A stretch of DNA of 64,000 nucleotides from contig JADNRY010000251.1 in the NCBI GenBank assembly GCA_015501585.1, forward strand, positions 25,895-89,894. The letters run 5' to 3'. This document shows positions 2,983-60,470 of this stretch, in pieces. The translations under genes and the position numbers were made by a program. The notes under the pieces were generated by a model, which was given only the letters and a program-made list of their open reading frames with translations, was not told where the DNA came from and did not search any database. The number at the start of each line of letters is the position of its first letter. Within the stretch, counting starts at the first letter, position 1. Source of the DNA: Rhodocollybia butyracea. Lineage: Eukaryota > Basidiomycota > Agaricomycetes > Agaricales > Omphalotaceae.

Positions 2983-3345
2983 ACCTGGGTGTGATCTTTG
3001 GACAGGACAGGTATGGAACAGGTAAGAAGCAGCAAGATCCCAGATATGTACTAGCTATGCTCCACCAGGCATCCCAATAGAAACCAGGTATGATCCAGAA
3101 AGGCCACAGGTATGAAGCAGCAAGGCCCCAGTTGTGTAGCAGGGATGCCCCACCAGCCATCCACATAGAACCCAGGTGTGATCTAAGGACAGGACAGGTA
3201 CAGAACCAGTATGAAATAGCAAGGTCCCAGATATGTACCAGCTATGCTCCACCAAGCATCCAGATAGAAACCAGGTATGATCCACAGCGGCCACAGGTAC
3301 AGAACAGGTATGAAGCAGCAATGTCCCAGGTAGGTAAAGATGCAC
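2983..3345 (+). repeat. 99-bp satellite, plus orientation
   Basis: Monomers of about 99 bp alternate between two types: one carrying CACAGAGGCCACAGGTA and ending ...GTTGTGTACCAGGTATGCCC, the other carrying GGACAGGACAGGTA and ending ...ATATGTACCAGCTATGCTC. The dimer is about 198 bp. ORFs across it are artefacts of the period being divisible by three. The last part runs into a hAT-like end (TAAAGATGCACACGGGTCC) near 3334. Confidence 0.85.
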
Positions 3346-3610
3346 ACGGGTCCGAGTCCAAGTCGACTTGGACTCGTCAGACAGGTACCTGAAGCTCAAA
3401 AAAGTTGACCTGTGACTTGGCAAAGACCCGTGAGAACCTTGACTTGGACCTGCAAGTAATTTACACAAGTAGACCCACAGGTACCTGTGACCCAAGTCAG
3501 CACAGGTACCTGCAAGTATACTTGCAAGTATCTGGAAGAATTAAAATAAGAAAAGTAATTATATAGTACAACAACAAACAAACTGTAATTGATACAAAGT
3601 ATTAGCCAAA

Positions 3611-4115
3611 CTACAATAGCTCAATCTCGGAATCTGACTTGTCAGCATCAGCAACACTCTTTCCTTTTCCCTTGTGACGGCTTTTCAAATTACGCAGATA
3701 TGCAAGAACCTCATCAATAGGAACAAGACCAGCATCAATCCAGGAGTGTAAGACCATTCAACATCGCACAGTTTCAAACTCCAAGTTATGACATCTTTTG
3801 GAAACTTGAAGTCCACCATGCGAAAAGAGACGTTCAACAACAGTTCATGTAGCTAAAGGTTCGGAATCAAGATCAAAGAACAATAAAATGTAGTGCAAAA
3901 ATAATCACCAGGTGCAGTAAGATAATCTAAGCCCATACAAGCAAAGGCACATCAAGGTGTAATTTTTGCACCTGGCTTGTCTAATCGGGAGGCATGATAC
4001 TTGATTGGGTCAGTCTCAGCATCAACAGCACTGTTAAGAAAAGATTCAACAACATCCAAAGCAGCAGTACGTCCAAACTGATCAAGCTCTTTAAGGAGGC
4101 CATCAAGATCCTGAA
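3611..4115 (-). pseudogene. hAT transposase C-terminus, decayed
   Basis: Reading right to left, an exon encodes an Asp/Leu-rich helix ending in PIKYHASRLDKPGAKI. After a probable intron comes the hAT dimerisation motif VVERLFSHGG...R.HNLEFETV, then HSWIDAGLVP and a Lys-rich tail ending at 3611. Two in-frame stop codons interrupt the last exon. The flanking bases 3346-3610 hold repeated GTACCTGCAAGTA motifs typical of hAT subterminal regions and shared with the element at 4321-5697. This is probably a remnant of the autonomous partner of that element. Confidence 0.7.
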
Positions 4116-4149
4116 AATAAAATTAGAAGCAATAGTGAAATAAGAGTAA

Positions 4150-4320
4150 AACATACTATCCACAAAGGCCACAGGTACAGAACTGCTATGAAGCAGCAAG
4201 ACCTCAGTTGCATACCAGGTATGTCCCACCAGGCATCCAGGTAGAACCTGGGTGTGATCTATGGACAGGACAGGTACAGAACAGGTATGAAGCCCCAAGA
4301 TCCCAGATATGTACCAGCTA
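4150..4320 (+). repeat. 99-bp satellite block
   Basis: Continues the same two-monomer satellite in plus orientation, broken at 4320 by a hAT insertion exactly after the satellite sequence ACCAGCTA. Confidence 0.8.
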
Positions 4321-5697
4321 TAAAGATGTCCACAAGTCCAGATCCAGGTATACCCGGATCTGTTTCACAGGTACCTGTGGACCTCAAGGGGCTACCCGTG
4401 ACCCGCACGGATCTGTGGGGAACAGATATCGGGATCCGCAGGTATTTTAACACAGGTACTTGCAGATACTTGCGGATCCCAGTCAACACAGGTACTCACA
4501 AGTAACTTGTGAGTACCTGCAAGTATTTAGTACTTATACATGTAAGGTATGAGTGTGAGATATAGTACATAGAATAGAGCATGATGTGGTATGGAACAGG
4601 TATGAAGCCGCAAGATCCCAGATATGTACCAGCTATGCCCCACCAACCATACAGGTAGAACCCAGGTTTGATCCACAGGGGTCACAGGTATGGAGCAGGT
4701 GTGAAGCAGCGAGACCCCAGTTGTGTACCAGGTAGACCCAGGTGTGATTTACAGACAGGAGTCAGGCCAGGTATGGACCAGGTATGAAACAGCAAGGTCC
4801 TAGATATGTACCAGCTATGCTCCACCAAGCATCCATATAGAAACCAGGTATCATCCACAAAGGCCACAGGTACAGAACTGCTATGAAGCAGCAAGACCTC
4901 AGTTGCATACCAGGTAGAACACGGGTGTGATCTATGGACAGGATAGGTATCGAACAGGTATTTTGAAGCAGCGAGATCCCAGTATGGCCGTAAAAGTGTG
5001 TAATAAATCAGGGGTCTTTCCATTTGTTGCAATGTTCTCAAGTCCTGATGCACTCCAGTTCAACACAGCTGAATTGGCTACACAATGTGCCATAATAGAA
5101 AAAAATAAACCTCTCAGGCCAAGTTAGTGACCTGGTCATTGGAACTGTACTAGCACTACAAAGTAGTCTCCTATACATTTGCATACATAATTTCAACTTC
5201 AGTGAAGGACTCAAAGCTTGGGTCTCAGGAGTGGCAAGTTTCATGCTCACAGTCAGCTGTGATTGGGTGTGGGTGGGGCTGGGTGGGCACAATATGGCTA
5301 CTGCAGAGCCTTTCCCTGTGCTTGGATTGCATGTTTTGGCACTGGCACTTGGTGCTGAAGAACTAATATTTATTCATGCTGCCACAAACCTAAAGTGATG
5401 GTAGCATACATAAGCAATACTAATGCAGCTATAACCTCAGAAGGGGAGGTTGCTTTTGGGTGTGAGCATCTGGTGAGTATGTCCTTTGTAGCTGTGGCGC
5501 AATTCTGCCAATCTTGCCCTCCCCACAAATACTTGCAGGTACCTGCATGTAGCTCAAATTTCCTTGGATCAATACCAGTGACCCACACGGATCCGTGGGA
5601 AACAGATACCGGGATCTGCAGGTAGACATACCTGCAAGTATTCTCATGGTCATACCTGCGAGTACCTGCAGATAACCCGGACTCATGGACATCTTTA
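4321..5697. mobile_element. Non-autonomous hAT element with 8-bp target duplication
   Basis: The left end reads TAAAGATGTCCACAAGTCC and the right end, reverse-complemented, TAAAGATGTCCATGAGTCC. Flanks are the identical 8-mer ACCAGCTA (4313-4320 and 5698-5705), which belongs to the satellite monomer. Subterminal regions are full of GTACCTG, CAAGTA and CGGATC motifs. The interior (about 4583-4985) contains 99-bp satellite, and 4990-5530 shows no recognisable gene. No transposase is present, so movement would depend on a partner such as the decayed copy at 3611-4115. Confidence 0.75.
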
Positions 5698-5950
5698 ACC
5701 AGCTATGCTCCACCATGCATCCAGATAGAAACCAGGTATAATTCACAGAGGCTAGAGGTACTATTAAGCAGCAAGAGCCCAGATAGGTACCAGGTATGCC
5801 ACACCAAGCATCCAAATAGAAGCCTCGTGTGATCTAAGGACAGGCCAGGTATGAAACAGGTATGAAGCTGCAAGATCCCAGATATGGACCAGCTATGGAT
5901 CAGGTATGAAGCAGCAAAATCCCAGTTGTGTACCAGGCATGCTCAACAAC
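5698..5950 (+). repeat. 99-bp satellite block
   Basis: Satellite resumes on the right of the hAT element with the duplicated ACCAGCTA, and runs to about 5950. Bases 5951-6097 contain a short unique stretch that recurs at 7525-7595 (ATTTATTACACACTATTATGG core). Confidence 0.8.
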
Positions 5951-6097
5951 AAATTATAGGGCCTAGGATAACATGGTGATATGCCAGGAAGAACATTTAT
6001 GTAAATGCAAATCATTGCCCTAACATTGTTGCATTTGATGCACTTCACTCAGGCTGCCTGATTTATTACACACTATTATGGCCAAACTTCATACCTG

Positions 6098-6650
6098 TTA
6101 AACAATTTTACCAGAATGTTCACTAATGCTGTTTGGGAGGCGCATATAGAGCTCCTCTTCCAACTCACCATTAAGGAATGTGGTATCAACATCATGAGGG
6201 TGGAAGTGAAGGCCTAGATGCACAGCGAGGGCGCAAAGGACACAAATGGAGGTAAGTTTGACCAGAGGGGAAAATACCTTGTCAAAGTCTGAGCTAGGCA
6301 TCTGGGAGAAATGTTGAGCAACTAAGCATGCCTTGTGCCACTCAATGGTCCCATCAGGAAGGCGCTTAATGTTAAAGACAAGCTTGGAGCTAATAGCACA
6401 GTGACCTTTAGGCAAATTGTTAATAAACTCAAAATCTCCCAAATCAATGAGAGACTTGAGCTCTGTGTCTACAGCCTTCAGCCAAGAGGCCAAGTTAGGA
6501 CCGCGGAATGCTTCCTGCAGAGTGCGGGGCTCTGAGGCTCCCTGAGCATGGACAGTGGCCACAAAGGCCATGGCAACACCTTCTGCAACATCTGGTCTAT
6601 TGCCTGGTGCAGCTTCTGGAGGATCTGGGGCAATGTCAGGCTCTTCACGG
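6098..6650 (-). pseudogene. Ty1/Copia reverse transcriptase, N-terminal fragment
   Basis: The minus-strand frame shows the start of a Copia-type reverse transcriptase: a LQEAF..W..AVDTELKSL segment, then LPKGHCAISSKLVF, KACLVA.HFSQ, the FSPLVK..S.. segment, and DVDTTFLNGELEEELYM. This is the fingers/early palm part; the catalytic YVDD, RNase H and LTR are absent. It passes directly into satellite at about 6650. It may be a displaced part of a Copia copy like the half-element at 7734-10799. Confidence 0.8.
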
Positions 6651-6654
6651 AAGC

Positions 6655-7345
6655 AGGCAGGTATCTGTACCTGTGGCCTTACCTGTTTTCTACCAGGATG
6701 CATGGTGGAGCATAGTTGGTACATACTGGGGATGTTGCTGTTTCATACCTAGTTGGTACCTATCCTGACTCCTATCCGTAAATCACACGTGGGTTCTACC
6801 TGGATGGCTGGTGGAGCATACCTGGTACACAACTGGGGTCTTGTTGCTTCATACCTGTTCTGTATCTGTCCTGTCCATAGATCACACCTGCTTCATACCT
6901 GTTCCATACCTGTGGCCTCTGTGCATCATACCTGAGTTCTATCTGGATGCATGGTGGAGCATAACTCGTACATATCTGGGATCTTCCTGCTTCCTATGTA
7001 TTCCATTCCTGTCCTGTCTGTAGGGCACACTTGGGTTCTACCTGGATCCCTGGTGGGGCATACCTGGTATGCAACTGGGGTCTTCCTGCTTCATACCTGT
7101 TCTGTACCTGTGGCCTCTGTGGATCATACCTGGTTTCTATCTGGATGCATGGAGGATCATAGCTGGTACATATCAGGGATCTTGCGGCTTCATACCTGTT
7201 CTGTAACTGTCCTGTCTTTAGATCACACAAGGCTTTTATCTGGATGCTTGGTGGGGCATAACTTGTATGCAATGGGAGCCTTGCTGCTTCATCCCTGTTC
7301 TGTACCTGTAGCATCTGTGGTGTGGATCACACCCGGTTTCTATCT
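6655..7345 (-). repeat. 99-bp satellite, minus orientation
   Basis: Seven or so monomers of the same satellite in reverse orientation (TGGTGGAGCATAGCTGGTAC, CCTGTCCTGTCC). Orientation flips relative to the blocks on either side, so the array has been inverted or built from opposed blocks. Confidence 0.85.
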
Positions 7346-7419
7346 GGATGCACTGCCCTCAGGTTGGCTGGGGGGTCAGCCAGGTTGGCTTAAGGTTACT
7401 TGAGTGTAGGGGGCATTTT

Positions 7420-7733
7420 CCTGATGATGCTCCACCATGCATCCAGAGAGATCCCAGGTATGATCCACAGAGGCCACAGGTATGGAACAGGTATGAGGCA
7501 GCAAGACCACAGTTGTGTACCACTGTACCAGGTACCAACATTGTTGCATTTGATGGCTTCAATATCTGATTTATTACACACTATTATGGCCGTAATGGAG
7601 CAACAAGTTCCCAGTTATGTACCAGGTATGCTCCTCCATGCATCCAGATAGAACCCAGGTTTGATGCACAGAGGTCACGGGTACGGAACAGGTATGAAGC
7701 AGCAAGACCCCGGTTGTGTACCAGGTATGCCCC
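7420..7733 (+). repeat. 99-bp satellite block
   Basis: Plus-orientation monomers interrupted by the short unique insert at about 7525-7600, and cut at 7733 by a Copia LTR. Bases 7346-7419 are unassigned. Confidence 0.8.
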
Positions 7734-8037
7734 TGTTGAGTAAGTACAAACGTGTTCCGTGTAAGATAGCCTGTAGTATTTGATTTTCATTTTGGCTATT
7801 ATCTAACTTACTTGTACTTGTAGCTACTCACGTATGTAAGCTACCTCAGACGTTTACTCCGACTAGTATTCGCGCTGAGGTTAGCCTTTCTTTTATTCTC
7901 TTTGTATATTAGTTTACTTACTTATCCTGTACTAGTCCGTACATTTACTTTACAGGTATATGAGACGTTTACTCCGACTAGTATTCGCACTGAGTCCGTA
8001 CATTTACTTTACAGTGCTATAAGAAATTACTACAACA
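7734..8037 (+). mobile_element. 5' LTR of a Ty1/Copia retrotransposon
   Basis: Starts TGTTGAGTAAG, ends ...CTACAACA, and is followed by GGTTATTGGGCCC, a primer-binding-site-like sequence. Inside, GTTTACTCCGACTAGTATTCG and AGTCCGTACATTTACTTTACA each occur twice, an internal duplication. No matching 3' LTR is found downstream. Confidence 0.7.
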
Positions 8038-8100
8038 GGTTATTGGGCCCCGAGTTACCCTCCGTTCTGCTGCGTCTCCAGATAAAACAACCTGTTTACG

Positions 8101-10799
8101 ATGTCCTCCGTATCCCGCCAGGCTAGTCGTGCCGCTTCCCATGACCCTGAGGTCAATATTGAGGAAGAAGAAGAATTTACCCCTATTCATGAAACACCCC
8201 AAACTCCTATTTCTACCCGTATTCGTGCTACCGCGACCTCGAAGGCTGCGCCGAGCACACCCTTTTTGAATCCCGTTGAACCTCCTTCAAGCTTACAGCT
8301 CTTTACTCAGTGTACCGACCACTTCGCTCAGGTTCCACAACTTGATCCTAAAGGAAAAAATTTTACCCTCTTCAAGCAGCGATGGCATATTGCTATTGCC
8401 GCTGCCGGTATTGCCCATCTCTTCGACAAGAAATACAAGCCCCCCTAGTCAACCAACTGATCCGTCAGACCCGAATTACGAGAAAATCAGACTTACATGT
8501 ACTACACCAGAGTAGAAAAATCAGGCCCGTTCAGTCTTGGTTTCACGTCTTGGTGACCGCTTGATGCGCAAGGTCACTAGGAAATCCACTCGCGTATATG
8601 ACATTTGGTTGAATTTAGTCGAGGAACTGCAGGTAAAATCAGAGGTCATGATTCCGGATATGAAACAGAAATGGGAGCAAAATACCTTTGACCCAAGGAC
8701 TATGGAGCTCCCAGACTTCTTGGATTCTGACGTCGAGATGGTAGAAGAGATAGAAAATTGCGGTGGTTCAGTCTCTGATACAGAATATCGTTCCCATGTT
8801 TCTGAAAATCCTGCCAAACTCCTATAAAGACTACATCAACACAATCATCCAGGTTTATGACCTGAAGGGCGAAGTGTTGAAGACCGAAATGCTTATTTGT
8901 CTTCTCAAGAGTCACTGGAAGTACAAAAATCCCGAAGGAAGAGTCCGTAACAAGTCAGTATCAGCGAAGGACAAAGAAAAAGATGCAAAAGATACCGCAC
9001 TTACCGCTGAAGCCTCCTCCGCTAATGCTTCTGGGAATACACCAAATCGAGGAGGGCGAGGGGGCGGTCAACGTGGTTGTGGAGGACGTCGAGGTGGTGG
9101 TACCGGACAGGGACCTCGTTGCTATAATTGTAACGAATATGGTCATATTAGTCGCAACTGTCCAGCAAAAGGGTCAAAAACTAACTCACCTACAGGCAAC
9201 AAGAAAAACTCCACTAGCACTAAGGCACCAGAGAAGAAAAAGGACAAATCCGCCAATACTGTTGACGACTTCGCCTACCTCGCAGAGGATGATTCCGACT
9301 CAGACTCTGACCTTGATAGCCTATTCGATACTCCACCAGCGAGCGACTCCGAAAGTGATGAAGACCCATTCGAAAGTCTCATCAGCAATGACGATATGCC
9401 AGGGCTTGTACCCATTTCTGATTCGGACTCTGAGGAGGAATATCCCGAGTTTGAATTTGTACCAGCTCCCGCACCTTATTCAGAGTCAGACCCTGAAGAA
9501 GAAAAAGGAGAGACCGTACTCGAGAAGGCCAATTTTCGTGACCTCTACATCCTCTCCACAGACATTCCCTTTGCCGATCTTGATGCTGCTAAACACGTTA
9601 GCGGAGAAAGTGATGAGAAGGTATTCTCTCACATTCTCGACACTGGATGCACCAAGCATATGTCCCCTGATGGGACAATCTTTGATTCGGCACCCAGTGC
9701 TTGCCCTGCAAGACGTTTCCGTACAGCTACTAAAGGGGAATTCAGTGCGAATTTACGCGCTGATGCGAACGTTCGAGTAGGAGAGAAGAATGTACCGCTA
9801 CCAAATGCGTTGTATGTTCCCGAGCTTTCTAACACATTGATATCAATTGGAAGTCTTGATGATGCCGGATACACGATTACCTTTGGGGGTGGTCAAGCTA
9901 CCATTGTCAATGCTGATGGTGACCTTGTAGGTTGCGTCCCGAAATCCAATGGATTATATCGCATTGTTAGTGATATTACACCTGGGGAAGTCAATGCCGT
10001 GGTTGAGAAAGTCACATTGGAGGAAATGCACCGACGTATGGGCATATCTCCTATCCCACTGCGAGAAGGATGGTTGAAAACAGATTTGTTGAGGGAGTCG
10101 AACTTGAAAACATCGATGTTGACCAATGCGAGACTTGTATCTTCGCAAAACAATCTAGGAAACCAATTCCAAAGGTACGCCAAGGTGAACGTGCACAAAG
10201 TCTTGGAGAACACGTACACTCTGATGTTTGGGGTCCAGCATCGATAGAATCTAAAGGCGGAAAGCGTTACTTTGTTACTTTCACTGATGACAGTACACGC
10301 CTAACTCACCTCTTGCTGCTCCGCTTGAAAAGCGACACGTTCCGAGCTTACCAGCAATACGCGGCGCTCATGAAAAAATCTTTTCGGAGTAACTATCCAG
10401 ATTTTCCATTCAGATGGAGGTGGCGAATATATGAGCAAGGAATTTATAACTCACCTACGTGATAATGGAATAGTCCACCGAGTCACTATACATGACACTC
10501 CCGAAGAGAACAGCGTTGCGGAACGCCTAAACCTCATACTACTTCAGCGAGTCTGAGCTATGCTTCATGCTAGCAATCTACCAAAGTCTCTATGGGCCGA
10601 ATGCGTAACTCACGCTGTTTGGTTGAAGAACCGCACGCCGACTCATGCCCTAGCCGACAAAACTCCCTATGAAGCGGCATATGGAAAGAGGCCAAATGTT
10701 GCTAATACACCGGAATGGGGAGCAAAGGTCTTCGTGCTAAAGAAATCCATTTCTAAACTCGACATTAGAAACCAGAGTTGGACGATGGGTTGGCCATAA
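8101..10799 (+). pseudogene. Ty1/Copia gag-pol, frameshifted and 3' truncated
   Basis: Gag begins at ATG 8101, 63 bases after the LTR. Frames change near 8440, 8800 and 10080, and beyond 10462, so several indels are present. Landmarks in order: gag; a CCHC zinc knuckle CYNCNEYGHISRNC at 9120-9161; an acidic linker; the aspartic protease motif LDTGCTKHM near 9636-9662; a gag-pre-integrase region; integrase motifs HSDVWGP and FTDDSTR near 10215-10290; and a late integrase segment WAECVTHAVWLKNRTPTHAL near 10580-10640. Reverse transcriptase, RNase H and 3' LTR are absent; sequence runs into satellite at about 11008. Confidence 0.88.
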
Positions 10800-11007
10800 T
10801 GACAGTACCAAAGAAATTGAAGTCAGTCAGGGGCACAGAATCTGGTGGCCGGACACGAAAACAGTTGGAATTGAGCGGTCTGTTATTTTTAGGCGCGAAG
10901 ATAATGAGATTCGAGGTTTCATTGAGGTGGAAGAGAGAGAGAGTGATGTTGGACTTGAGGGGGAGAGAGTTGAAGTTGAAAGGGCCCCAATCAACGTTGA
11001 CAAGCCC

Positions 11008-11370
11008 GACAGGTATGAAGCAGCAAGGCACCAGTTGCATACCAGGTTGGATGCCCCACACCTCCAGGTAGGACCCAGGTGTGATTTAAGGAGAGGACAG
11101 GTATAGAACAGCAAGATCCCAGATATGTACCAGCTATGCTCCACCAAGCATCCAGATATAACCCAGGTTTGATCCACAGAGGCCACAGGTACAGAACAGG
11201 TATAAAGCAGCAAGAGCCCAGTTGTGTACCAGGTGTGCCCCACCAGTCATCCAGGTAGAACCAAAGTGTGATTTACTGACAGAAGTCAGGACAGGTACAG
11301 ACCAGGTATGAAATCAGCAACATCCCAGATATGTACCAGCTATCCTCGACCAGGCATCCAGGTAGAACCC
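11008..11370 (+). repeat. 99-bp satellite block
   Basis: Satellite resumes after the truncated Copia copy at GGTATGAAGCAGCAAGG, in a different phase from where it stopped at 7733, so the Copia segment is not flanked by a simple target duplication. Confidence 0.8.
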
Positions 11371-12170
11371 TTATGAATCCTATGGCATCCAAGGATTTTT
11401 GGCTTGTCCCTTGCCTGTCAAGGCTCTTGAGGATTCCCTCAGTATCCTAGGCAAGCCTAGGCTTGCCCAGGTTTATGCAGGTTTGCCCAGGTTCCATGCT
11501 ATTGGCTGGACAGGCCCCATGTCACAACAAAACATGGTAGATCCAAGTTCCACATCAGATCTGATCAATTGATCAATTGGGCGCTCCTGATGCAAGAAGG
11601 GCACTTTGCTGTCAAACAAAGAATAATTTTGCCGCAGTTTTGGCGCAGATCTCAGCCAGTAAAACAAACAGCATCCTAAAATGTTTACTATTAAACAATT
11701 ACAACTTCTCTGAGCTGTTTTCCAACAACAGTGTGAGTGCTGGGAAGTCGCCATGTTGCCACATCACATACCAGCTTTGGTCATCCATTTGATTGGTCCA
11801 AATTAGGTGAGAATTGATCAATGACTGGCAAATCTGCAGCACACAGAGGAGGCCACTTTATGTGCATTCTTCACTTGTACCCTCATATACTCAACTTAAT
11901 TCAAAAAAATGATTCTAAGCATGTTTCATGTTTTACACCTGTTGGCTGAAAGAGATACAAACATTGCCATCGACAAGGAACTCAAACAATAGGCTAGAAT
12001 TTACTATCAATTTGGAAATTGATCCATAAGTTGATATGCACTAGTCGCAGTTGGGCGCTTCGCACTCAGGTAGGCGCCATAAAATCCCAAACTGATGACT
12101 TTATTTATGTTTCGGTTGCCTGATCACATCAACCCGGGAAAACAGCAGGGCTGGACCAATCCGCAACCCA
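11371..12170. other. Intergenic, no gene seen
   Basis: Begins with short GCCTAGG / TTGCCCAGG repeats (11400-11510), then AT-rich unique sequence with scattered TTGATCAATT motifs near 11560-11580 and 11810-11820. No open frame with protein-like composition is visible. Confidence 0.5.
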
Positions 12171-13490
12171 CCAGTCATGTTACACCAAGTGCCAGATATG
12201 TACCAAATACACAGTTACACAGATATGCACCCAGTATAAAACACTGAGGGCACAAATAGGAGTAACAGGTATGTATCACTGAGGCTACTTATAAGTACCA
12301 GTCATGTTTCAGTACTGTATAATTATGACCGGATGCCGCATAATGCATAATGGGACCCCCAAGCATGGGGCATTTTGCAATCTGTAATGCATAACAGGAG
12401 GGTCCAAGCATGGTATCTCTCAAAATGTCACAAATTTTTGCGGCGGGCCTTTGGCCCACCTATTTATTTGTAAGGATGGACACAACTCCTGTGGGAATAC
12501 CTGGAAACCTGTAACCCACAGGTGCCAACAATCATGTACACACCTATCAAGGGAGTACAAGATGTACATAATTGTGGCTCAGTGTTACATACATGGTGCC
12601 TATCTGTATCCTTAGTGACATATATTCAGTACATATCTGGTGCCTTGGTGTAATGGAACAGGTACCTATTTGTACCCTCCGTGTTTTATACTGGGTGCAT
12701 ATCTTGGGTCTTGATGCAGTGTATCTGGTACATATCTGGCGCTTGGTGTAACATGACTGGTATCTATCTGTAGCCTTGGTGGACCATTTCTGATACATAT
12801 CTGGTGCCTTGGTGAAACATGACCAGTACTTATGAGTAGCCTCAGTGATACATACCTGTTACTCATCTGTACCCAATATTGTCCTGCAAGGCTCTAGATA
12901 GGCACCAAGCATAGAACATGGAGGCTGTCAATAGGTACCAGTTCAGATGGTGCAAGATATGCAGGTACTGTATATGATCCACTTGGCTACTTCTAGGTAG
13001 TATCAAGGCACCAGATATGTACTGAATATGTTCCACCAAGGCTACAGCTAGGCACCAGGTATGTGACAACAAGGCAACATGCATGTACTGGATATGTTCT
13101 ACCAAGGCACCAGATAGCCACCAGCCTGAGGGTACTCATAGGTACCAGTTATGTTACACCAAGGCACCAGATATGTACCAGATATGCCCCACCACGGCTC
13201 CAGATACACACCAGGTATACAGCACTGCAGCAACAAATAGGTATCAGTCATGTTACACCAAGGCACCAGATATGTACTGGATACACTCCACCAAGGCTAC
13301 AGATAGGCACCAAATATGTACCAGTCAAATTACACCAAGGCAACATACATGTACTGGATATGTTTAACCAAAGCACTATACACTGCTGTGGCTATACACA
13401 TGTGTGAGATATGCTCCACCATGGCTACAGATGGCCACCAGATATGCAATATCCAGGCTAACACTAGATACCAGATTATACTCCAGCAAT
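12171..13490. repeat. Satellite of about 33 bp, mixed orientation
   Basis: Degenerate units around CACCAAGGCACCAGATATGT. Plus orientation at 12171-12330 and 12960-13490, minus at about 12550-12960. The stretch 12331-12545 between them is a unique insert. Long open frames here are by-products of the repeat. Confidence 0.75.
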
Positions 13491-17786: not shown

Positions 17787-17966
17787 ACGCGTAAATTTCG
17801 GGCCCGCCTCCGCTTCCCTCCCCTCCCTCGCAAGCTCGGGGGTCCCCCAAGCCGGGAAGTCGTCGGCGGGCACCCTAAAGCCTCATTTACGCAGGATATA
17901 TATGCGGAGCGCCTGCGGCGCACCCTAACCCTAACCCTAAACCCTAACCAAACCCAAACCCTAACA
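17787..17966 (+). repeat. Dispersed block followed by telomere-like repeats
   Basis: Bases 17787-17892 match, reverse-complemented, the block at 37275-37350 (GCCGGGAAGTCGTCGGC, CTAAAGCCTC and TTTACGC in the same order), with an extra C/T-rich insert here. It is followed by CCCTAA-type units at 17921-17966. The copy at 37 kb is also bordered by a short TTAGGGG motif, so the telomere-like DNA is part of the repeat family and not a chromosome end. Confidence 0.7.
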
Positions 17967-18879: not shown

Positions 18880-21355
18880 TAAAATGGAAATCAAAAAAAT
18901 CAAATTAAGGAACAATTTATATCAAAGATAAACCGAGCCCATAAAACGGTTACAGCCGTCCCGTGGCTAAACTGAAGAGTGGGATTGATAGAGGACATGC
19001 TGAGGGTCCTGCAGAAATCTATTTTGAGTGGATAAGGTGCGTCAATAGGTGACTGAGGAATGGCCAGCAAAGTCAACGTGAATTTGTAATAATAGCCATC
19101 AGTGATTTTGATGTGCCAAATCACTGATAGCCAGTTCTGGCTTGCTGAAAGTGTCGTGTCTTTGTGTCAAGGAAGCAGCTAAATTGTATCTGAGGATTGA
19201 ATAAATTACCTTTGCTCAACCCTGACATTAGTCAAAATGATTTTCCTAATTCTTGGCACTCTAAGTGATTGTTTGCTCAAGGGCAATCCAAATGATTGTC
19301 CTCAATAGGAGACAATCTCACTGATTGTCTTGGGTTGGGCACTCTAAATGATTGTTTGCTCAAGGCAATCATTTTGATTGTCCTTAATAGTATGCAATCC
19401 AAATGATTGTCTTAAATTGAGCACTCCAAATGATTGCTTACTTAAAACAGTCATTTAGAATGCCCACAACTTAGGACAATCATTTGGATTGTCCTAAGTT
19501 GTGGGGTGGGTGACAAAGGTACTTGTCGGACTTTAAATTTTCGTACTTGTCCTTACAAAAGGTACTTTAAAGGTACTTAAGGTACTTAAGTTACTTTGTC
19601 ACATACAAGTACGACAAAGTAACTTAGTGTACTTTGATGGTACTTGGCTACTTAGGTACTTATATTGATGATTGTGATGTATTTCCTATAATTTTGCAAT
19701 TCTTAAGCTTGAGCAAGCCTGGCCTAATCGTAGTAACCTTCAAGCACCCTAATTGATTATGTAGAGCATCGAGGGTAACAAAATAACATGTCAGCATTAC
19801 ATGTCAAGAAGTTCCCAAGTAGCGGAGTTTGAATTTATTGATGCGGCCAAGTACCCGCCAAGTACTGGTCAAGTACACTTATGGGGCCATTGCAAATGTG
19901 CACAGCCCAGATAGCAAATCTATGGACCGCAAAAATGTTGAAAAAAAGTCAGAGCATGATGCTCGCTTCCCAGATCAGGTGCTCAGAACAACAGTGCTCC
20001 CAGCACACTGCTCCACCCAGTTTCCCGTTCCGTCCTTACCACTATCACACATACTTTGTACCCTCAAGTAGCTCATTAGTGCTATGTAACTTACTTTCTC
20101 CAAGCTGTATGTACATAATTAGACGCAAAAATGACAATGTACACTCAGAATGCGATAGAATCAAGTCATATCTTATTATTGATGCAGACATCATGCTGAT
20201 ATCCATTATCTTCAAGTTGGCTCTTGGCGTCTACTTCTGCGCACAATCAACTAGCCAGTTGGGGCACAGCCAATTTTGATCTTGACCATTGACATCCACC
20301 TCCGCCACTACGCAGCTAGCAATACTACCGTTCCTAGTAGCCGTTTTTGCGACTTCCAACTTGCTGAATTGGCTGAAGAGCCTCTTCTCAAGGAAAAGGC
20401 ACCCAATGATAGTTGAACAGATGTTGGCTGAGCTCAACTCAACCCCAACGGTGCCGACTTTCTGGCTGCAGGTGGTACCGCCCCGTTTCCACCTCCCAGG
20501 TCTTTGTTTGCACCACAAGCCCTTCTTAGAATCCCAAATCAATGCTTTTATCCCGGCTATGGCGTTTACTTACTTTGTTGCTTCTAACATGGCATACTGG
20601 CCATACCATTTTGGTGAGGGAATTCATGGTCCTAGATAACAAATAAAGGAAGAAGAGGTAGAGGTCAAGGCAGAGGCAGAGTTTTTTTTTTTCTATATCT
20701 ACCTTCAGAATTGTATATCAAAACCAAATTCTACTTATATTGAAATGAGCTCATATGTATGGTGTTCAGTGTGAGACTTCAATTGAGTCTGTACTCGGAT
20801 TGAAGAATCGAGTTCGACGGGGGATCTGCCTGAGATATAGCCAGTCCCTATGCATCTCTGAGAGGTATCTCCAAGGTACCGAAGTAGTGGTGACTGTTGG
20901 GAAGAAAGAGATCTCTATGCTGTCTCAGTATGAGTATGTAGTTATATACTGCAGAGATACTTAGATAATATGACGAGTTTCGTGCATAGACATGCATGAA
21001 GCTCGACATCAGTGGTGGTGAGCTTATATAAACACAGTCCGAGGTGTGCAAAAGGAGAGGTATAACATGCTATTAGTACATCCAGTACTCAAGTACTCTG
21101 CCGAAGTATGGCATCAAGTACCTGTCAAGTACCTGTCAAGTATGTGAAAATAAAGTAACTTGATTATATTGATAAAAGTACGATAAAAGTACGAAACCCA
21201 GTACCTTTGCTAACACTCAAGTTGTGGGCATTCTAAATGATTGTTTGCTCAAGACAATCAAAATAAGTGTTTGGCAAAAAAACATCTAAATGATTGTTTT
21301 TTCAAAAAATGATTGTCTCAGACAATCAAATTCATTGTTTTTCCTTCCCGTAGTG
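18880..21355. mobile_element. Right part of a CACTACGG-ended DNA transposon
   Basis: The right terminus (..AATCAAATTCATTG.. ..TTCCCGTAGTG, ending 21355) is the inverse of the CACTACGG end at 36381. Many AATGATTGTC subterminal motifs fill 19230-19500 and 21228-21340. Internal bases 18890-19160 match 37800-38060 of the 6.7-kb element (ATGCTGAGGGTCCTGC, GATAGCCA). No left terminus is found, so this is a truncated or rearranged copy. Confidence 0.65.
19505..21218. mobile_element. Nested element in the subterminal repeats, 9-bp duplication
   Basis: The subterminal region is interrupted between two copies of AAGTTGTGG (19496-19504 and 21219-21227). The ends share CAAAGGTACT in inverted orientation, and AGTAC/GGTACTTAAG motifs crowd both termini. 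A 9-bp duplication fits a Mutator-like element, but no MURA-type transposase is seen. Short frames near 20289-20639 and 20755-20964 have no recognised domain. Confidence 0.6.
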
Positions 21356-24900: not shown

Positions 24901-25643
24901 TCAGTCCCAGGCTGAAGTTAGCTGGTTTTGATGAACAAAATCATACACTGTCTCCCAGTTCCGGCAAATATGGGTCTGCCCTATCCCGTCTGTCCCTCGC
25001 AGAGTCCCATTGGCCTCAATATTCAATGGGTCGAGCGTGGTATCTGATGCGCATAGCACCGCCTAACAGTCATTTCAGTAATTTCAATACAGTTATCGGA
25101 TTAGAGAGAAAAAATTATTTGCCTGTCTAAGGAAGTTTAAACAGTGCTGAGTATGTTCAGATACATCATTCAGGAGGATAGAGCTACGAAGGATCTGGAG
25201 ACAATGCATCTGATGAAACATGCTGATACCAAATGCACGCCCTGCAATGATATTGAGCACTACCACGTCTTTGTAACAGATAAGGCGCACCTTTGGAGCC
25301 CAGTCTAACAAACCCGTTTCCCTTCGGAAATGCATCCATTGCGCGCCACTCCGCCCAGGACTCGAATCCTGTGAGGGAGAACTGCGCCGAATTCTCAAAT
25401 GTTAGTGCAACAGGGGGAACATGAAGAGGTAGCAAGGTGGGGTAGTCGTTTCCTTCGTAGCCTGCTGTAATGAAAAACTTGGATTTCCTAGTGAGAAAAG
25501 AACATACTGTAATCACCCGCATTCTCTGAGGTTTCCCGAAGAAGCTTGAGAGTGACCCAAAGGTTCATGCTAAAGCTTGCAAACAGAGAGAAAATCAAAA
25601 AAATGACAACAGACTTTGGGAGGGCCCAAAATTTTTGAGTCAT
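24901..25643 (-). CDS. UstYa-family (DUF3328) oxidase-like protein
   Basis: Four exons, complement(24901-25062, 25123-25241, 25291-25464, 25508-25643), give 196 aa. Introns are 60, 49 and 43 nt; the last (25063-25122) uses a GC donor. Residues 7-28 form a transmembrane anchor. The diagnostic pair of HxxHC motifs is present: HQMHC near residue 113 and HTQHC near 133. These are followed by LRQ, C.SDTTLDPL and G.THICRNW, as in UstYa proteins. Known members act in the secretory pathway and oxidatively cyclise repeat-derived peptides in ustiloxin/asperipin-type RiPP pathways. The family is about 200-260 aa, so this is full length though short before the first HxxHC. The start ATG is chosen because it gives the membrane anchor. 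It is divergent from the gene at 26164. Confidence 0.85.
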
Positions 25644-26163
25644 GATAGTTTCAAATGGATCAGAGACCGATAACGACTAAAAAACAGGTAGGGTATAGGG
25701 CTTAACTATAAGATTTCACACGTTGTTTGAGTTGACCAAACCTTCCAAAATCTGCTCAGTTCTAGTCGTGTGTCACGCAGAACATATTATACACACACGG
25801 GAAGGGAAGTAAAGGAAAGAAGCCGGCAGGCAAGGGCTCTCTGTTTAAGGTTTAAGGAAACAGTCCAAAGTAAACATGTGAGTTTTGTTTAGAACACAAG
25901 TTTCCCCGGGAGAAGCCTATATTAAAAAAGTGACAACATCGATCCGGACAGGCTCAATGATTGAATAATTTACCAATCGGTTGGTAATGTTGATTTCATA
26001 TCCTTCTCCAAACACGAAGGTCAGAGAAATAGGTTCTTCCCCTTTTCTCAATACAACCACATAAGCTCCCAACAGGTCATTATCCACAACTGGCGACTGT
26101 CTCTGTCTCATTTGCTACCCCATCTCCCTCAGTACCTGAATTGGTATCCAAACAAGTCCGAGA
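25644..26163. promoter_or_regulatory. Shared divergent promoter region
   Basis: The 520 bases between two diverging start codons would contain both promoters. No clear TATA box is seen on either side. A 64-codon minus-strand frame (25917-26111) lies inside; it has no known domain and is not supported as a gene. Confidence 0.4.
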
Positions 26164-27059
26164 ATGCGTCGCTCTAGAAACTCATCTGTCGAGGACTATA
26201 TTCCACTCATACCAGAAGACCCAGGGGACGGCTGGCAGTCATTGCATATCGTACCCGTGCCGACACATCGCAGGATCATATTCATAATTTCAGCTGTCCT
26301 GTCGATCCTGACCGTCTCAGTTTCATTCTGCCTTGTCGGGACTTCTTTCAAGAGGAACATGTTTCCCAGAACGCTTGACGGCCTCGCAATTCTCTCACCG
26401 TATCCCAACAGAGATGAAGCAAACATATTGAAGGCCTCAAGGAATGGTCTGTGTGCCTTCATTTTCTTGTACCAACTCACATATGTTTGTTTCAAGCTCC
26501 AAAGATGTGGTTTCCTAATTGGATTGTCAATGTCAACTCAAACGAACCTAACAGAGTGAAAACTCCAGGAAGTCATGTTGTAATCGGTAGTACCGTACGC
26601 CACTCCCCTCTCATACACCATTCCAGCTCATTTTGAGGTCCGGGAGTATAGGATTCTACTTTTTTCCACTGGGTGACCAATCTTTCTCCTACGGCATCCT
26701 GTTACATCGAGGCCGTAGTGAGTAATACCTCTGCCCTTGCGGCTGGTGGGAAATCTTCGTACGCTTCTACTGGTAACATATCTGCGCTCGAAGTATGGAA
26801 CGTCACTGCGCTCCCAGAGTCCGGAATTACATGGAGTACCCGTCCGCAGCGGCTGAATCTTTTGGGAACAATAAATTTCACAGAAGATATACTTAGATCT
26901 TACGATACAGGGTGGCAACTAAGAAATCCAACACCGAGGTTTGGATGTGAGGGCAAGAGAGAGACAGTTGTTGAAGTTGCTTGTCCTGTGGATGCGGTGG
27001 AGGATACTGGATGCTGGTTAGAGTTTGAGCAAGTGTTTTTCAACTCCCCCTTTGTGTGA
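26164..27059 (+). CDS. Single-pass membrane protein of unknown family
   Basis: Exons 26164-26446, 26497-26594 and 26652-27059 join in one frame (262 aa), with introns of 50 and 57 nt. A short basic N-terminus is followed by one hydrophobic span at about residues 37-60, then a long domain containing PKMWFPNWIVNVNS, VVIGSTDSTFF, several predicted N-glycosylation sites (NxS/T) and three or four Cys. This suggests a type II membrane protein facing the secretory lumen. The last exon may be spliced further: GTGAGT follows at 27056 and a good acceptor lies near 27110. I do not recognise the family. Divergence from the UstYa-like gene suggests shared control and possibly a shared pathway. Confidence 0.65.
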
Positions 27060-29286
27060 GTTGTGCCATTTTTCGAAATTGAGTGCCTTAAGTTAAATAT
27101 TTTGTGCAGCGTTTGACTTGCAAGAACTTCGTTAAATACGACGAAGCACAGAAGGAGCTATATTTCTCCCTGTTTATTGCCTGTTCCATATGTATCTCAA
27201 TCGTCTCCGGTGCTGCTATACTAAAATACACTTTGGTTTATGAAATAACAATGGACATCTACTAATCCTTCCGGGGGCCGCCATTGCTTCTGTTTAGGGC
27301 CCGTGATTGCTTGCACTTGATTTTCATATCTGAGATTCGTTCTTACAGCTAGCAAGGGGGCATGGAGATAGTTAGAGTTTAAAACAATCCAACTGAACGA
27401 CTGCCAAATCACACCAGAAAGCACTGAAAAGTTGCAAAAAGGTGCTGGGTGGGTTTGTGTACTGATAAGATCAGCGGTGGGTTCCAGTTTGCCCGGAATG
27501 GTCATTAAAAATTTCAGTACACATTTCTACCGGACAGTGTTTTGGAACTTTACTGGCTGTATTACTGCTGGTTGCAACGTGTCCTTTTACTTGGAAAGAA
27601 GGATTGATCACACAGCTGCCTGTCACGGTCCAAGAGTTGGACACCGGTTTCCTCAGAATGCTACAAGATCAGCTTTGAGGGTTCTTTTATCCCCATTTCT
27701 GCTTTGGTTGCCCTAACCCGGCCCCTAACAGCACCAGCCCCAGGGCTTACCAATTGATCAACATCTCTTCCATCTCTTACTACTTTATATGACCATTGAT
27801 GACTCGGATGTCAGTAAACCAAAACAGATCTAGGTACTGTCTGGTGTGAGTAGAGAAGTGGACAACAGAGAAGAGGAAGACAGATTCTCTGAACAATGGG
27901 AGTGGCCCGGCGGAAGTCGCATCTGATGACCCATAGTAAAGCTTGAGAAATTTCTTGGTGGCCAGATCACAGAACCATTTGATTAACTTGTGACATCATG
28001 TACAACGAGGGAGGTGAAGCGGGGCTACGGATGGAACTTATTGCAGCAGAGTATTCTGTTGTACTGCCGGTCTGAAGGATTGGACACTGAATCACACTCG
28101 TAATAGGGAATATTCTGCTATCTATAGCTAAGTTTCATCTTCGGCCCTATTAAGCTTGGCTTGGTCCACTTAGCGCCGCTATCTGATATCGTTATCGACG
28201 ACTATCTCTAGTTTTTTCTAGTTTTTTGATCCACCATATACCTTGGCAGAAGATTCACTGGTGAGTAGTTGCTAGTGGGAGCAAAGTAGGAGCGAGTATT
28301 TTCACTAAACTTTGAACTTCTGGAATCAGGTACAGTCAGGACTCAGGGAATAAGTGGATGAGCTTCTATATTGCAATTTGTTCCGCCCCCAGGCTCCGGC
28401 CACATCTACACAGCATAGCTGTGAGTTAGGCTTCATGTCTTGGTTATTTTTGCTATCTGATTTTGTCAGCAGGGATATGGTAGCCGTCAACACGATGCAG
28501 CCTGTTGGTGGGCATCCATCAGCGGCTTCTCTTTCACACTTGACTTCTTTGGCCCCCCTCGTTGATCGGCGTCTTGTCAATTCAGTAGCAGGGGATCTGA
28601 GCACTGCAGTCCTCAGGAGTTTATGGCCTTTGGCTGGGACACTGGGCCTCAAATTGCAGCCGGTGCAATAACGCATCGCAGAGTTGCGCTGGAATTTCCA
28701 GTAGCCATGCATGCATCACAATATCTAGTATCCAGGTCCAGTCACGAGTAGCCTAGTAGAGCTACTTATAGCCACTTCGGGGGACATCCGCCTTTCGTTT
28801 ACTCACTGAGAAGTAATACAGGGCAGTAGAAGGTGACGGAAATAAGACAAGTAGCGGGAAGCAGACAGTTCCCTATTGTGGGATGATTGGATAGCCTTCA
28901 CACGTTCTCTGACTTCTAGGCCCATTAGGGAAAACTCCTCGTGGTGCGAAGTAGTGGCCGTAGGTACTGTACGATTACGACCGTAAGTTCAACCCTCTGG
29001 AGCATTACGGGCTAGGTTTAGGTCACACGCAGTTTAAGGCCCAATTTTTTGCGTTACTCCTTGGTTCAGGCTCCGTAGGCGCCGCTAAAATTGCATATCA
29101 AAGCACAAAAATACAGTTTTAATACCTTATGACGAGAATTTTTACAGTTCAGGCAGCTGCGCTATCATTACAGATCTGGAATTGTCTGAGTTCAGAGTGC
29201 TTGCGTAACGCGTTACTGAACTTACGATCGTGATTGTACAGTAATTTGCTAAATTAACTCTTACCCAAATGTCCTGCGAGACTATA
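27060..29286. other. Intergenic, no supported gene
   Basis: Several 90-130 codon frames occur on both strands (for example 27432-27716 plus, 28354-28671 plus, 28326-28712 minus), but none shows a domain, splice support or consistent composition. A short 3' exon of the preceding gene could lie at 27113-27145. Confidence 0.4.
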
Positions 29287-29346
29287 GCCAATATCAGACA
29301 AGGAACACATGCCAGCATAGAAAAACTTGAGAGTGTATATAAAAGG
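29287..29346 (+). promoter_or_regulatory. Core promoter of the repeat-precursor gene
   Basis: A GCCAAT box at 29287-29292 and a strong TATATAAAAGG box at 29336-29346 lie 136 and 82 bases upstream of the ATG at 29428, which matches normal spacing for a well-expressed fungal gene. Confidence 0.7.
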
Positions 29347-29427
29347 GCAAGCCCCAAGAATGAACTGCCAAACTTCCAGAGTCAAGCCACCTCCTTGATA
29401 CCACTTCTAAAAACTACTCCCTTCGCC

Positions 29428-30401
29428 ATGCGTTCCAACGTCGTCATGACTATCCTTCCTCTTGTTCTTGTTGCTGTTCAAGCAGCTCCTCTTGTAAACC
29501 GTGAGTTTGGCCATCTCCCAATATTTGTTACTTGCTATCCATCACTTTGCTGATCTCATGCCCGTATTCCAGGCATCAATGATGGTAATAAAACTACTGT
29601 ACTGAGCTCAATAACCGTCCTGCGCAAGCTTACCAACATGGAAATGTAAGGGCACAAACAAGAATGGCTACGAAGTCACCGTACCTGATATCACCGTACG
29701 CAAGACTGTATGCCTACTATTCAGATCATTCTCTGCTAGAAACTTACACATCGTCAAAATGCTAGGGCACAGACAAGGAATTCTACGAGTTCATCCCTGA
29801 TGTTACTGCACGCAAGACTGTATGTCTCACTACTCATTCTCTGCTAGCTTACAAACTTACACATCGTCAAAATGCTAGGGCACAGACAAGGAATTCTACG
29901 AGTTCATCCCTGATGTCACAGCACGCAAGGCTGTATGTCTACTACTCATTCTCTAGATCTCTGCCGGCTTACAAACTTACACATCGTCGAAATGCTAGGG
30001 CACAGACAAGGAGTTCTACGAGTTCATCCCTGATGTCACAGCACGCAAGACTGTATGTCTACTACTCATTCTCTAGATCTCTGCCAGCTTACAAACTTAC
30101 ACATCGTCAAAATGCTAGGGCACAGACAAGGAGTTCTACGAGTTCATCCCTGATGTCACAGCACGCAAGACTGTATGTCTACTACTCGTTCTCTAGATCT
30201 CTCTAGATCTCTGCTGGCTTACAAACTTACAAACTGTCAAAATTCTAGGGCACAGACAAGGACTTCTACGAGCTCACCGTCCCTGATGTCACTGCACGCA
30301 AGATTGTACGTCTCACTACTCATTTTCTACAGACTTAGTAACCCTCAAAACCCAAGGGCACTAACAAGAATGGCTACGAAGTCACCGTGCCTGCAATCTG
30401 A
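29428..30401 (+). CDS. Secreted tandem-repeat protein, candidate RiPP precursor
   Basis: Nine exons: 29428-29500, 29573-29598, 29651-29707, 29766-29819, 29879-29932, 29999-30052, 30119-30172, 30249-30305, 30357-30401; 157 aa. Exon 1 encodes a typical signal peptide (cleavage probably after Ala 20). Exons 3-8 each encode one repeat of 18-19 residues following GT(D/N)K-x2-YE-x3/4-PD-(V/I)-T-x-RK-(T/A/I). The last exon carries a partial repeat and stop. Every repeat exon is phase 0 and most end ACT before the GT donor. Repeats contain one Tyr with aromatic neighbours and a basic pair (Arg-Lys). Fungal Kex2-processed repeat precursors have this layout, though their sites are usually Lys-Arg, so processing is uncertain. 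The UstYa-like gene 3.8 kb away supports a RiPP role. Alternatives are a cell-wall or adhesion repeat protein. Confidence 0.75.
29651..30356 (+). repeat. Tandem exon-intron units of 108-130 bp
   Basis: Each unit is one micro-exon plus one intron. Exons 6 and 7 are identical and their introns nearly so, which shows recent unequal exchange or conversion. Introns share GTATGTCT donors, a CTTACAAACTTAC branch-site region and a TCAAAATGCTAG acceptor; later introns carry an extra CTCTAGATCT step. Confidence 0.9.
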
Positions 30402-58058: not shown

Positions 58059-60470
58059 CTACATCTTCAAATTAAAGTAAATGTGGCTATCAGCAAATGG
58101 ACTCAAAAGAAACATAGGGCAGGAATCCAGAATGGACTCGAAAGTCCATTCTGGGGGTACAGTACCTCCCCACTTTGGATACAGATGAACACTCTGCTGA
58201 ATCATTTCTACTGGGACAACAGATACTGCTCGCGATCCATCTCTCTGGAATTGAAGCTTGATCCGATGAAGACCGGTATGAGGTTCCACGCTCCGTGTAA
58301 ACTTTGTAAACCATTCGATGTACACCAGGTGTTGAGGTGGCGTGTTGTTTTCAGAAAATAAGCGACCCAGTTGCTTTGCGGGAAGGGAGAAAACAACACA
58401 AACTCGACCAATTTGCAACCCTATTGCAGATGTAGGAACAAAGAATTGCAACAACGTGAATCCAAACCCAACTCACCTTGAAGGAAATCACTGCCATCCT
58501 CCGATTTCCAAACGCGGATGAGAGCAGGACTGAAATTAGAGGTTTCGGTGACCTGGTTGCGGGAATTATAGCGGCGTGGATGGCAGGAAACAACATCAAG
58601 AGTCTTGTTAGCATACAATTCTTTGTTTCGGAAGTTGACTCTGTGCCAGACGGCAACACTTCGGAAAGGAAGAGCAAGAAAAACTGCCATCTCCTCAATT
58701 TGACAAGGTCACCACCCTGGATTCTGGAACTGCGCTATAAGTTTTTGGAGCGCCTTTTCAAACTGGGTTGCACTGTATCCCCGATCCCCTGTATCTTCGA
58801 GCTTCGAAAAGGATACTGACCGCACACTAGAATATTTTGTGAGGTGCTGGTCGAGAGGGCATCTCATGTCTAAAAGTGAGCGTTGAGAGCCAGGAAAGCC
58901 GTAGCGCACCCCAGGTACAATGGTAGATCTGCCAGTGGGATGGGAAGTGATTTGGACCCGAGAGCGGCGCCATTCTAGGTACGCAGTGTGATGCAAGACC
59001 TTTTCGCGCCACTCCAGCCATTTCGTCATCTGCAAATACTCATCCTTGTGATTGGACGCTCGATAGGCATCCTTTGCAAAGTCTATGTGGAGGCGCTCTG
59101 TCGTCTCGGTGTTGTAGTTGTTGGATGAGCCAAAGAGCTTGAAACCGCGGACGTAGTGGCATAAGAAATGAATTTTCGGAAGATTGAAATGTTCTCAAGC
59201 ACCTAGTTCAATGAAAATGTTTTTGTATTCATGGAAGAGACCAAGCGAAGCTTCAATAGAATCCAATGATTTGTCACTCTGGATTGGAAAACATGAAATG
59301 TATATGAAGTCAAGCAAAGCCTGAGTCCCTGAAGCTAGGTTTTGTGACTGCGAGGCCGTTAACTTGGGAACATCGACAAATAGGCTGAGTAAAAAAGTGC
59401 ACATCTGCTTATGTTCGAGTCCACTGATGCGAGAAAGAGAGGTAATTCCCTTGTGGAATTGCCAAATACCATGCTTTGCTGGAAGCCATCGCATCCGCGC
59501 ATCGACTTTGTCAGCTCCAACAATTTCTGTTATCCATCCAATGAGATGTTTCATAACACCTTGGTAAAGCTGGTGAAGGATATCTGGTGTGATCGCACAA
59601 AAGATGTCGGTGTAGGGGAGGTCTTCCCAGAAAGGATGCTGAACTGGTTTGATGTTGGCGTCAAGGCACGCTTTTATCCATTCATCAGTACCAATAAGTT
59701 TTGCAGCACCAGCTGATTGAACATGGTCTTGATAAGCAGCAGTGCAAGGATATTCACCCAACTGATCTTTGGTGACCCCGCAGACTGGACTTTTGCCATA
59801 GTAACCACAAGTAACTAGCATCTGCTCAGGATAGTCACCAACGTAGGCTGCAAGAATGGGATGGCAGCGGCGCTTAATGCCATCCCCACTCGTCATGGCA
59901 ATGCCGCCGATACCTGTGCTTTTCAGGGGAGCGAGGATATTGGCCATGCAGCCATGGAATAGATTGGATACAGCTCGGCGTCGGGCAGCTTTGTTCGTTA
60001 TGTGCTGGAGGCGGGTAGTGGGAAGGTACGCAAGGAGAATTTGGCCTTGTTGGGATGGTTTTTGCCGAATTTCTTTCAGAAGGTTTCCAATAGTCAAGTA
60101 CACAGGGTACGCAGATTTGTTGCGAAATAAGGTGACCTGGGTCTTATTGCTTGAGATAATAACAGGAACGACAGTGGCACCTGGTTTATCCTTCTCAAGC
60201 TGCTTCTAGTAAACACTTTAGAACTTTTGATTGGGATCAATGGCAGAGAAAGGTCCTACTTGAGTGCTCCACCACCATTTCCCACTGTACATATCATGGT
60301 ACAGGCGATTTGTCTTGTCCGTGTCGGAGTAATGCCGCTCTGGAGCCACACATAAGTACTGTGCATGTTGAGGAGCGCCATACAATGAGCATATGCACTC
60401 AAGTAATGGCCGCTTGAAAAGGTCAAATGCCTCTCCAGCCACAACCACTTCTGCCCGGTGACACCCCGAA
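58059..60470 (-). pseudogene. Plavaka (CACTA-related) transposase, central and C-terminal part
   Basis: Minus-strand coding in order: EVVVAGEAFDLF, PERHYSDTDKTNRLYHDMYSGKWWW; intron 60206-60259; KPGATVVPVIIS, SAYPVYLTIGN, LAYLPTTRLQHITNKA; CDANIKPV.HPFWEDLPYTDIF..ITPDILHQLYQGV; IGWITEIVG; then NNYNTETTERLHIDFAKDAYRA; and the C-terminal end with GRVCVVFSLP and EWFTKFTR to a stop at 58059. An in-frame TGA at 59195-59197 breaks the frame where relatives usually have Arg before EHFN; a CGA-to-TGA change would explain it. Frame changes near 58700 and 58450 are probably introns. Plavaka elements are widespread in Agaricomycetes. Confidence 0.85.

Follow-up and report, generated by a model that had tools for sequence, protein, structure and literature searches.

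A UstYa-type gene, a membrane-protein gene and a micro-exon repeat precursor recur together in the mushroom Rhodocollybia butyracea, probably as a dikaritin-like cassette

We analysed a stretch of 64,000 nucleotides (the window) from the basidiomycete Rhodocollybia butyracea (GenBank assembly GCA_015501585.1, contig JADNRY010000251.1, positions 25,895 to 89,894). A sequence-only reading had proposed that window positions 24901 to 30401 hold a locus for a ribosomally synthesised and post-translationally modified peptide (RiPP). Three genes are present there, which we refer to as locus A: a minus-strand gene for a UstYa-like protein, a divergent gene for a membrane protein, and a plus-strand gene for a repeat protein, the putative peptide precursor. 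The start codons of the UstYa-like and precursor genes (ATG 25643 and ATG 29428) are 3.8 kb apart, as that reading had stated. The UstYa-like gene was modelled as follows:

25508..25643, minus strand: UstYa-like exon 1, with the start codon (25643) and the membrane anchor (gene model; public protein identical over 195 residues)
25291..25461, minus strand: UstYa-like exon 2 (gene model; public protein identical)
25123..25241, minus strand: UstYa-like exon 3, holding HQMHC and HTQHC (gene model; the whole protein scores 61.9 bits with Pfam UstYa)
24901..25062, minus strand: UstYa-like exon 4 and stop (gene model)

When joined, the four exons encode a protein of 195 residues with a hydrophobic N-terminus, which was assessed by eye as a membrane anchor. 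Intron 3 (25063-25122) is of the GC-AG type (donor GCAAAT); copies of the gene at loci B and C, described below, have a GT donor. The public R. butyracea protein BDP27DRAFT_1494225 is 100% identical to our model over the full 195 residues, indicating that the unusual intron 3 was chosen independently there too. The model and the public protein thus bear out the earlier description of a four-exon minus-strand protein with two HxxHC motifs and an N-terminal anchor, and the profile comparison which that description had called for placed the protein inside UstYa/DUF3328 (Pfam PF11807; 61.9 bits over residues 103-187, where the cut-off is 25). A genome-wide UstYa profile search had not listed the gene because its split exons were scored singly; the spliced protein passes. 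The HxxHC pair is intact (HQMHC at 112-116, HTQHC at 132-136), and when 40 of the 72 proteins found were aligned, the two motif cysteines proved invariant and the four histidines were kept in at least 90%. In the characterised DUF3328 enzyme CctR, this pair is described as the copper site (PMC12435403). An AlphaFold model predicted a helix at residues 10-38 well and most of the remainder poorly (mean predicted local distance difference test score 61.7), and was too weak for a test of the metal site. No solved structure matched the protein, the best being two agglutinin chains at E 0.64.

The precursor gene was modelled from the DNA sequence, without transcripts, and its signal peptide was assessed by eye:

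29336..29341, plus strand: TATA-like box, 92 bases 5' of the precursor start codon (similar boxes at -73 in the precursor genes of loci B, C and D)
29428..29500, plus strand: precursor exon 1, signal peptide MRSNVVMTILPLVLVAVQAAPLVN (exon model, by eye)
29573..29598, plus strand: precursor exon 2, stub repeat of 9 residues (exon model)
29651..29707, plus strand: repeat exon 1, GTNKNGYEVTVPDITVRKT (exon model)
29766..29819, plus strand: repeat exon 2, GTDKEFYEFIPDVTARKT (exon model)
29879..29932, plus strand: repeat exon 3, GTDKEFYEFIPDVTARKA (exon model)
29999..30052, plus strand: repeat exon 4, GTDKEFYEFIPDVTARKT (exon model)
30119..30172, plus strand: repeat exon 5, GTDKEFYEFIPDVTARKT (exon model)
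30249..30305, plus strand: repeat exon 6, GTDKDFYELTVPDVTARKI (exon model)
30357..30401, plus strand: last exon, repeat GTNKNGYEVTVPAI shortened by the stop (exon model)

From its ATG at 29428 to a stop ending at 30401, the predicted gene comprises 9 exons encoding 157 residues, with the frame and splice borders intact throughout. Each repeat occupies one exon, and there are six full repeats of 18-19 residues and a truncated seventh. The repeat exons measure 54 or 57 nt, apart from a last one of 45 that includes the stop; all are multiples of 3, start in phase 0 and begin 108-130 bases apart; the introns between them are of the GT..AG type and 51-76 nt long, two of them with the acceptor AAG. 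The array has a Tandem Repeats Finder (TRF) score of 858, far above chance, in a window which is repeat-rich otherwise (48 TRF rows; some spaced DNA repeat in 12 of 32 control tiles). A tyrosine is present in 7/7 units. Over the whole precursor the basic pair RK occurs six times, in 6/7 units and thus in all six full repeats, and KR and RR occur nowhere in it. The earlier account of a tyrosine and a basic pair in each full repeat stands. An unspliced open reading frame (ORF) at 29766-30206 was rejected as a real product, since it translates introns and has no signal peptide, and the corresponding introns at locus B are full of stops. Matches of the precursor to Pfam families below the cut-off (FKBP26_C, Styelin and others) were treated as chance. 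Neither the A nor the B precursor turned up in a collection of 5.8 billion proteins, where the neighbouring UstYa is present (one search scored only the best 7995 candidates); two candidate matches from the protein-collection search, P0073 and P0074, were judged unrelated on inspection. Among viral contigs there were no relatives, all 26 pattern matches being unrelated.

Between these two genes lies the third:

26164..27053, plus strand: divergent membrane-protein gene, in stretches at about 26164-26445, 26496-26597 and 26652-27053, 3' end provisional (13 rows of relatives, all at cassettes)

No Pfam family was found for its main exon. The sequence-only reading had included this gene as 'perhaps' a member of the locus, and its membership is borne out by conservation at A, at both haplotypes of B, and on contig C1161 of locus C; contig C24 stops short of the expected place.

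We searched the whole R. butyracea assembly (95.6 Mb, 1381 contigs) for relatives of the three genes and found them together at three loci: A, B (contigs C509 and C427) and C (contigs C1161 and C24). The members of each contig pair look like haplotypes of one locus, since sequence identity is 96.9% over 5.3 kb between C509 and C427, and 98.2% over 1.6 kb between C1161 and C24. In a UstYa search that returned 24 rows, including the window's own gene and more distant UstYa relatives, C509, C427 and C1161 gave close relatives (59-78% in each matched stretch), as did the end of contig C24 (81% over 21 residues). The precursor searches, in which only the best candidates were scored (10 rows at E to 1, 26 rows at E to 10), gave relatives on C509 (two), C427 (two), C1161 and C24, and none elsewhere in the genome. 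With the window these are 7 places, or 4 genes once haplotypes are paired, and every one of them has a close UstYa relative at a distance of 1.2-9.4 kb. Every row of the membrane-gene search (13/13) likewise fell at A, B or C. An ordinary UstYa gene might have come to lie beside an unrelated repetitive gene by chance, in a genome with at least 12 UstYa loci (haplotypes paired) and many repeats; however, all detected precursor relatives and all membrane-gene relatives lie in the same cassettes. In these searches neither the precursor nor the membrane gene turned up apart from the close UstYa family, and we therefore reject chance neighbourhood, which we regard as very improbable.

The order of the genes is UstYa (-), membrane (+), precursor (+) at A, and membrane, UstYa, precursor, all on one strand, at B and C. 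The order thus differs while the genes stay together, so that their linkage has outlasted a rearrangement and some divergence. At the DNA level (blastn, E 1e-5), A aligns to B in the UstYa gene, in the membrane gene and over the signal-peptide region, and not in the repeats; the A repeats have no detectable DNA similarity to those of B or C, which resemble each other. For the UstYa genes, the ratio of nonsynonymous to synonymous divergence (dN/dS) was 0.235 (A-B), 0.178 (A-C) and 0.079 (B-C), at dS values of 0.48-0.65 for A against B or C and 0.196 for B-C. Purifying selection acts on the UstYa enzyme of the cassette.

The first precursor of locus B repeats DRKGYDIT 13 times, for example within the unit GGDVEKRDRKGYDIT; the copies occupy exon 2 and the 12 micro-exons after it, each of the 12 being in phase 0. 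Both alleles have 15 exons with the frame kept and a short final exon, GGDIDE, and carry different sets of units. The candidate peptide of this locus in the exon model is DRKGYDITGGDVE, with variants. The cores (KGYDIT) are preceded by KR or RR, the classic site for Kex2, in 9/13 copies on C509 and 10/13 on C427, with QR before the remaining copies. When the B units of C509 are compared with one another, the final 30 nt of their exons average 87% identity and the introns 67%, a sign of coding constraint. The C1161 precursor has three units, 2/3 with KR; in the assembly its C24 allele carries a frame shift. Tyrosine occurs in 13/13 B units and 3/3 C1161 units; two positions further on stands V, F or L in the A units, and I in those of B and C. 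The earlier reading had named, as speaking against a RiPP locus, relatives of the repeat gene that are never near a UstYa gene and unprocessed. We found them only beside UstYa genes, and most B copies have KR or RR. Locus B also holds a second precursor (C509:1-340, C427:1-339) whose core differs: C509 has KRITALYYITGG, and C427 a small deletion at that place. Both copies are cut by the contig end, and a DNA search of the genome for the remainder gave no further contig.

Once haplotypes are paired, the genome holds at least 12 UstYa loci, five of which (A-E) have a nearby repeat precursor, one read only in part. Near the UstYa loci we used a spaced-repeat detector of low specificity (it fires on 12/32 window control tiles) and low sensitivity (it missed the true locus C), together with a repeated-peptide test that was positive on 4/32 control tiles. 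For this reason a locus was retained only if it combined a signal-peptide-like start with an open frame and dibasic sites. A dibasic scan is blind to micro-exon arrays and missed the one on contig C431. The spaced-repeat detector flagged C431, C921 and C1160/C305; the C1160/C305 repeat was dropped once its sequence was read, and a C223 frame with VSDLV three times was dropped because its three short repeats have no dibasic bounds. On C431, where a UstYa match at 19042-19296 scored 74.9 bits in the genome profile search, a complete micro-exon gene unrelated to the A-C precursors (gene D, C431:20122-20812) lies 0.8 kb past the match:

C431, gene D: exons in order MKLTTFSAVLVLAVTASAQPVIHI, AQRDVNDGAANPDRAFPGWN, four times KRSSDVDDAFPGWN (42 nt each), RRADSDTVSNIQL

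KR or RR bounds 4/5 AFPGWN copies of gene D, with QR at the first copy. Gene E (C921:13005-13614) has a signal-peptide-like start and RR-bounded repeats, for example SDAEDGETLTSLGDFRR, in a single open frame, its first-exon join being provisional; it lies about 0.9 kb from a UstYa gene on the opposite strand at C921:14k (allele C1161:150k). A further UstYa locus, the sixth, is found at C921:21k, about 6 kb from the UstYa gene of E.

Taken together, we consider it fairly likely that these three mushroom genes form a cassette of the RiPP type, in which UstYa oxidises repeated tyrosine cores and proteases acting at basic sites release peptides. The signal peptide would direct the precursor into the secretory pathway, and the membrane-anchored, luminal UstYa copper enzyme would oxidatively modify the cores, most likely by joining tyrosine to a nearby aliphatic side chain. 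In ustiloxins and phomopsins, tyrosine is described as joined to an internal isoleucine (PMC9233826). Proteases would then release the peptides at basic sites, and the membrane protein would be an accessory to which we assign no role. With one core per in-frame micro-exon, a copy could be gained, lost or skipped and the frame would not shift; if so, duplicating an exon with its intron, or skipping exons, would alter the number and mix of cores and leave the frame intact. In the cassette, an enzyme and its putative substrate would also form a defined pair, with cores that vary naturally. The proposal of a basidiomycete RiPP locus is thus partly supported, by the UstYa family, the recurrent linkage and the KR and RR sites of the relatives; canonical Kex2 sites are absent from the window precursor. 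Kex2 prefers arginine at the cut, and the window precursor has RK only, so that canonical Kex2 cutting is not supported for it; cutting of this precursor may occur at RK.

Several observations weigh against this interpretation. With KR or RR in 0/7 units, the window precursor falls outside the Kex2 criterion for dikaritins and for Kex2-processed repeat proteins (KEPs). Its repeat exons are 91-100% alike and its introns 89-98% alike, that is about equally, so the units are young and coding constraint on the A repeats is not demonstrated. The three cassettes stem from duplications, and their linkage is therefore not three independent observations and not independent proof. The cores of genes D and E have phenylalanine or tryptophan and no tyrosine. 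No precursor was found in the flanks of six UstYa loci (C827 twice, C1160/C305, C517, C223 and C14), a weak negative given the short flanks (about 3.9 kb per side at the two C827 loci, only about 1.5 kb at the others) and the detector's failure to flag locus C as well. By Pfam, no tyrosinase or other tailoring gene, including peptidase and methyltransferase, was recognised in 20 of the 35 window ORFs of at least 130 residues, though intron-split genes can escape such a search. UstYa genes near repeat precursors in basidiomycetes were, moreover, already known as a bulk count; the micro-exon precursors are the new element.

The window precursor could be an uncut, secreted repetitive protein of the wall or surface, or a decaying cassette copy that has lost its dibasic sites, as its RK-only units and truncated last repeat would allow; locus C, with 3 repeats against 13 in B and a C24 allele that is frame-shifted in the assembly, also fits this reading. 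However, the frame and splice borders of the window precursor are intact across 9 exons, and the UstYa gene of A is intact, with dN/dS of 0.18-0.24 to its relatives. We regard an uncut or decaying precursor at A as distinctly unlikely.

Alternatively, the repeats may be linear peptides released by proteases and serving as signals or in defence, while UstYa works on another substrate or only hydroxylates them. Agaricomycete KEP peptides detected by mass spectrometry in Coprinopsis, Lentinula and Pleurotus are reported as linear and minimally modified (PMC9769878), which also counts against an oxidative cassette, and DUF3328 members are described that hydroxylate and halogenate (PMC12435403). 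Against this, a precursor and UstYa are paired at several loci in one genome, and tyrosine is kept in every repeat of the A, B and C1161 precursors. We consider the linear-peptide explanation unlikely, and favour the oxidative cassette.

In design the cassette is probably a micro-exon dikaritin-like one, dikaritin-like rather than a proven dikaritin. Like the dikaritins of ascomycetes (ustiloxin, phomopsin, asperipin), it combines a signal peptide, repeated tyrosine cores and a nearby UstYa/DUF3328 gene, and has tyrosine two residues ahead of a hydrophobic V, L, I or F. It differs in being basidiomycete, in having one core per micro-exon (the exon layout in ascomycetes being outside this comparison), and in the want of a recognised tyrosinase or other tailoring gene and of KR and RR in the window precursor. 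Ustiloxin and phomopsin are stated to require a tyrosinase, and asperipin to have one DUF3328 gene (PMC7329392). The epichloecyclins of Epichloe, whose precursor GigA is mentioned in passing in PMC6374014, share a multi-core secreted precursor that is likely cut by Kex2, and an epichloecyclin product is described as Tyr-Ile cross-linked (PMC9233826); Epichloe, in contrast, is an ascomycete. Among Agaricomycetes KEPs, the B and D precursors fit (signal peptide, repeats mostly bounded by KR or RR) and E looks alike, whereas A has RK only, the A-D genes are divided over micro-exons, and a UstYa gene is close by. PMC9769878 mentions one R. butyracea homologue of a KEP whose core is another. The SP7-like effectors of arbuscular mycorrhizal fungi are also secreted repeat proteins, with a conserved intron ahead of the first repeat; the sections of PMC11333574 that describe them mention neither a separate exon for each repeat nor any link to UstYa.

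A survey of 1461 fungal strains gives DUF3328 neighbours for 103/1680 basidiomycete KEPs, and offers two readings: that another cyclisation factor operates in Basidiomycota, or that cyclisation hardly occurs there (PMC7329392). Against these few neighbours stands one mushroom genome with five UstYa-precursor loci. The one-repeat-per-exon layout may help to explain why such genes were overlooked in mushroom genome surveys. No description of one-core-per-exon precursors was found in the open-access literature searched; the words 'intron' and 'exon' are absent from PMC6339444, and 'intron' from PMC7329392. We raise, as a tentative and somewhat doubtful extension, that mushrooms hold a largely unseen UstYa-type RiPP class with splicing-modular precursors which gene predictors miss, so that the reported scarcity of DUF3328 neighbours would in part be an artefact of annotation. 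If micro-exon precursors are common, this class of mushroom peptides has been under-counted.

Elsewhere in the window, pieces of Copia-type retrotransposons were found at 6101-6742 (minus strand; RVT_2) and 8754-10244 (plus strand; zinc knuckle and Pol beta-barrel), and a Plavaka transposase fragment at 59198-60205 (minus strand; 278 bits). Several arrays at 3018-13352 are apparently built on a similar unit of 11-22 bases (CAGGTATGAAGCAG-like), and an interstitial telomere-like ACCCTA run lies at 17922-17965. In the assembly as a whole, the contig pairs C509/C427, C1161/C24, C1160/C305 and C921/C1161 are about 95-99.7% identical, which fits a part-assembly of both nuclei of a dikaryon.

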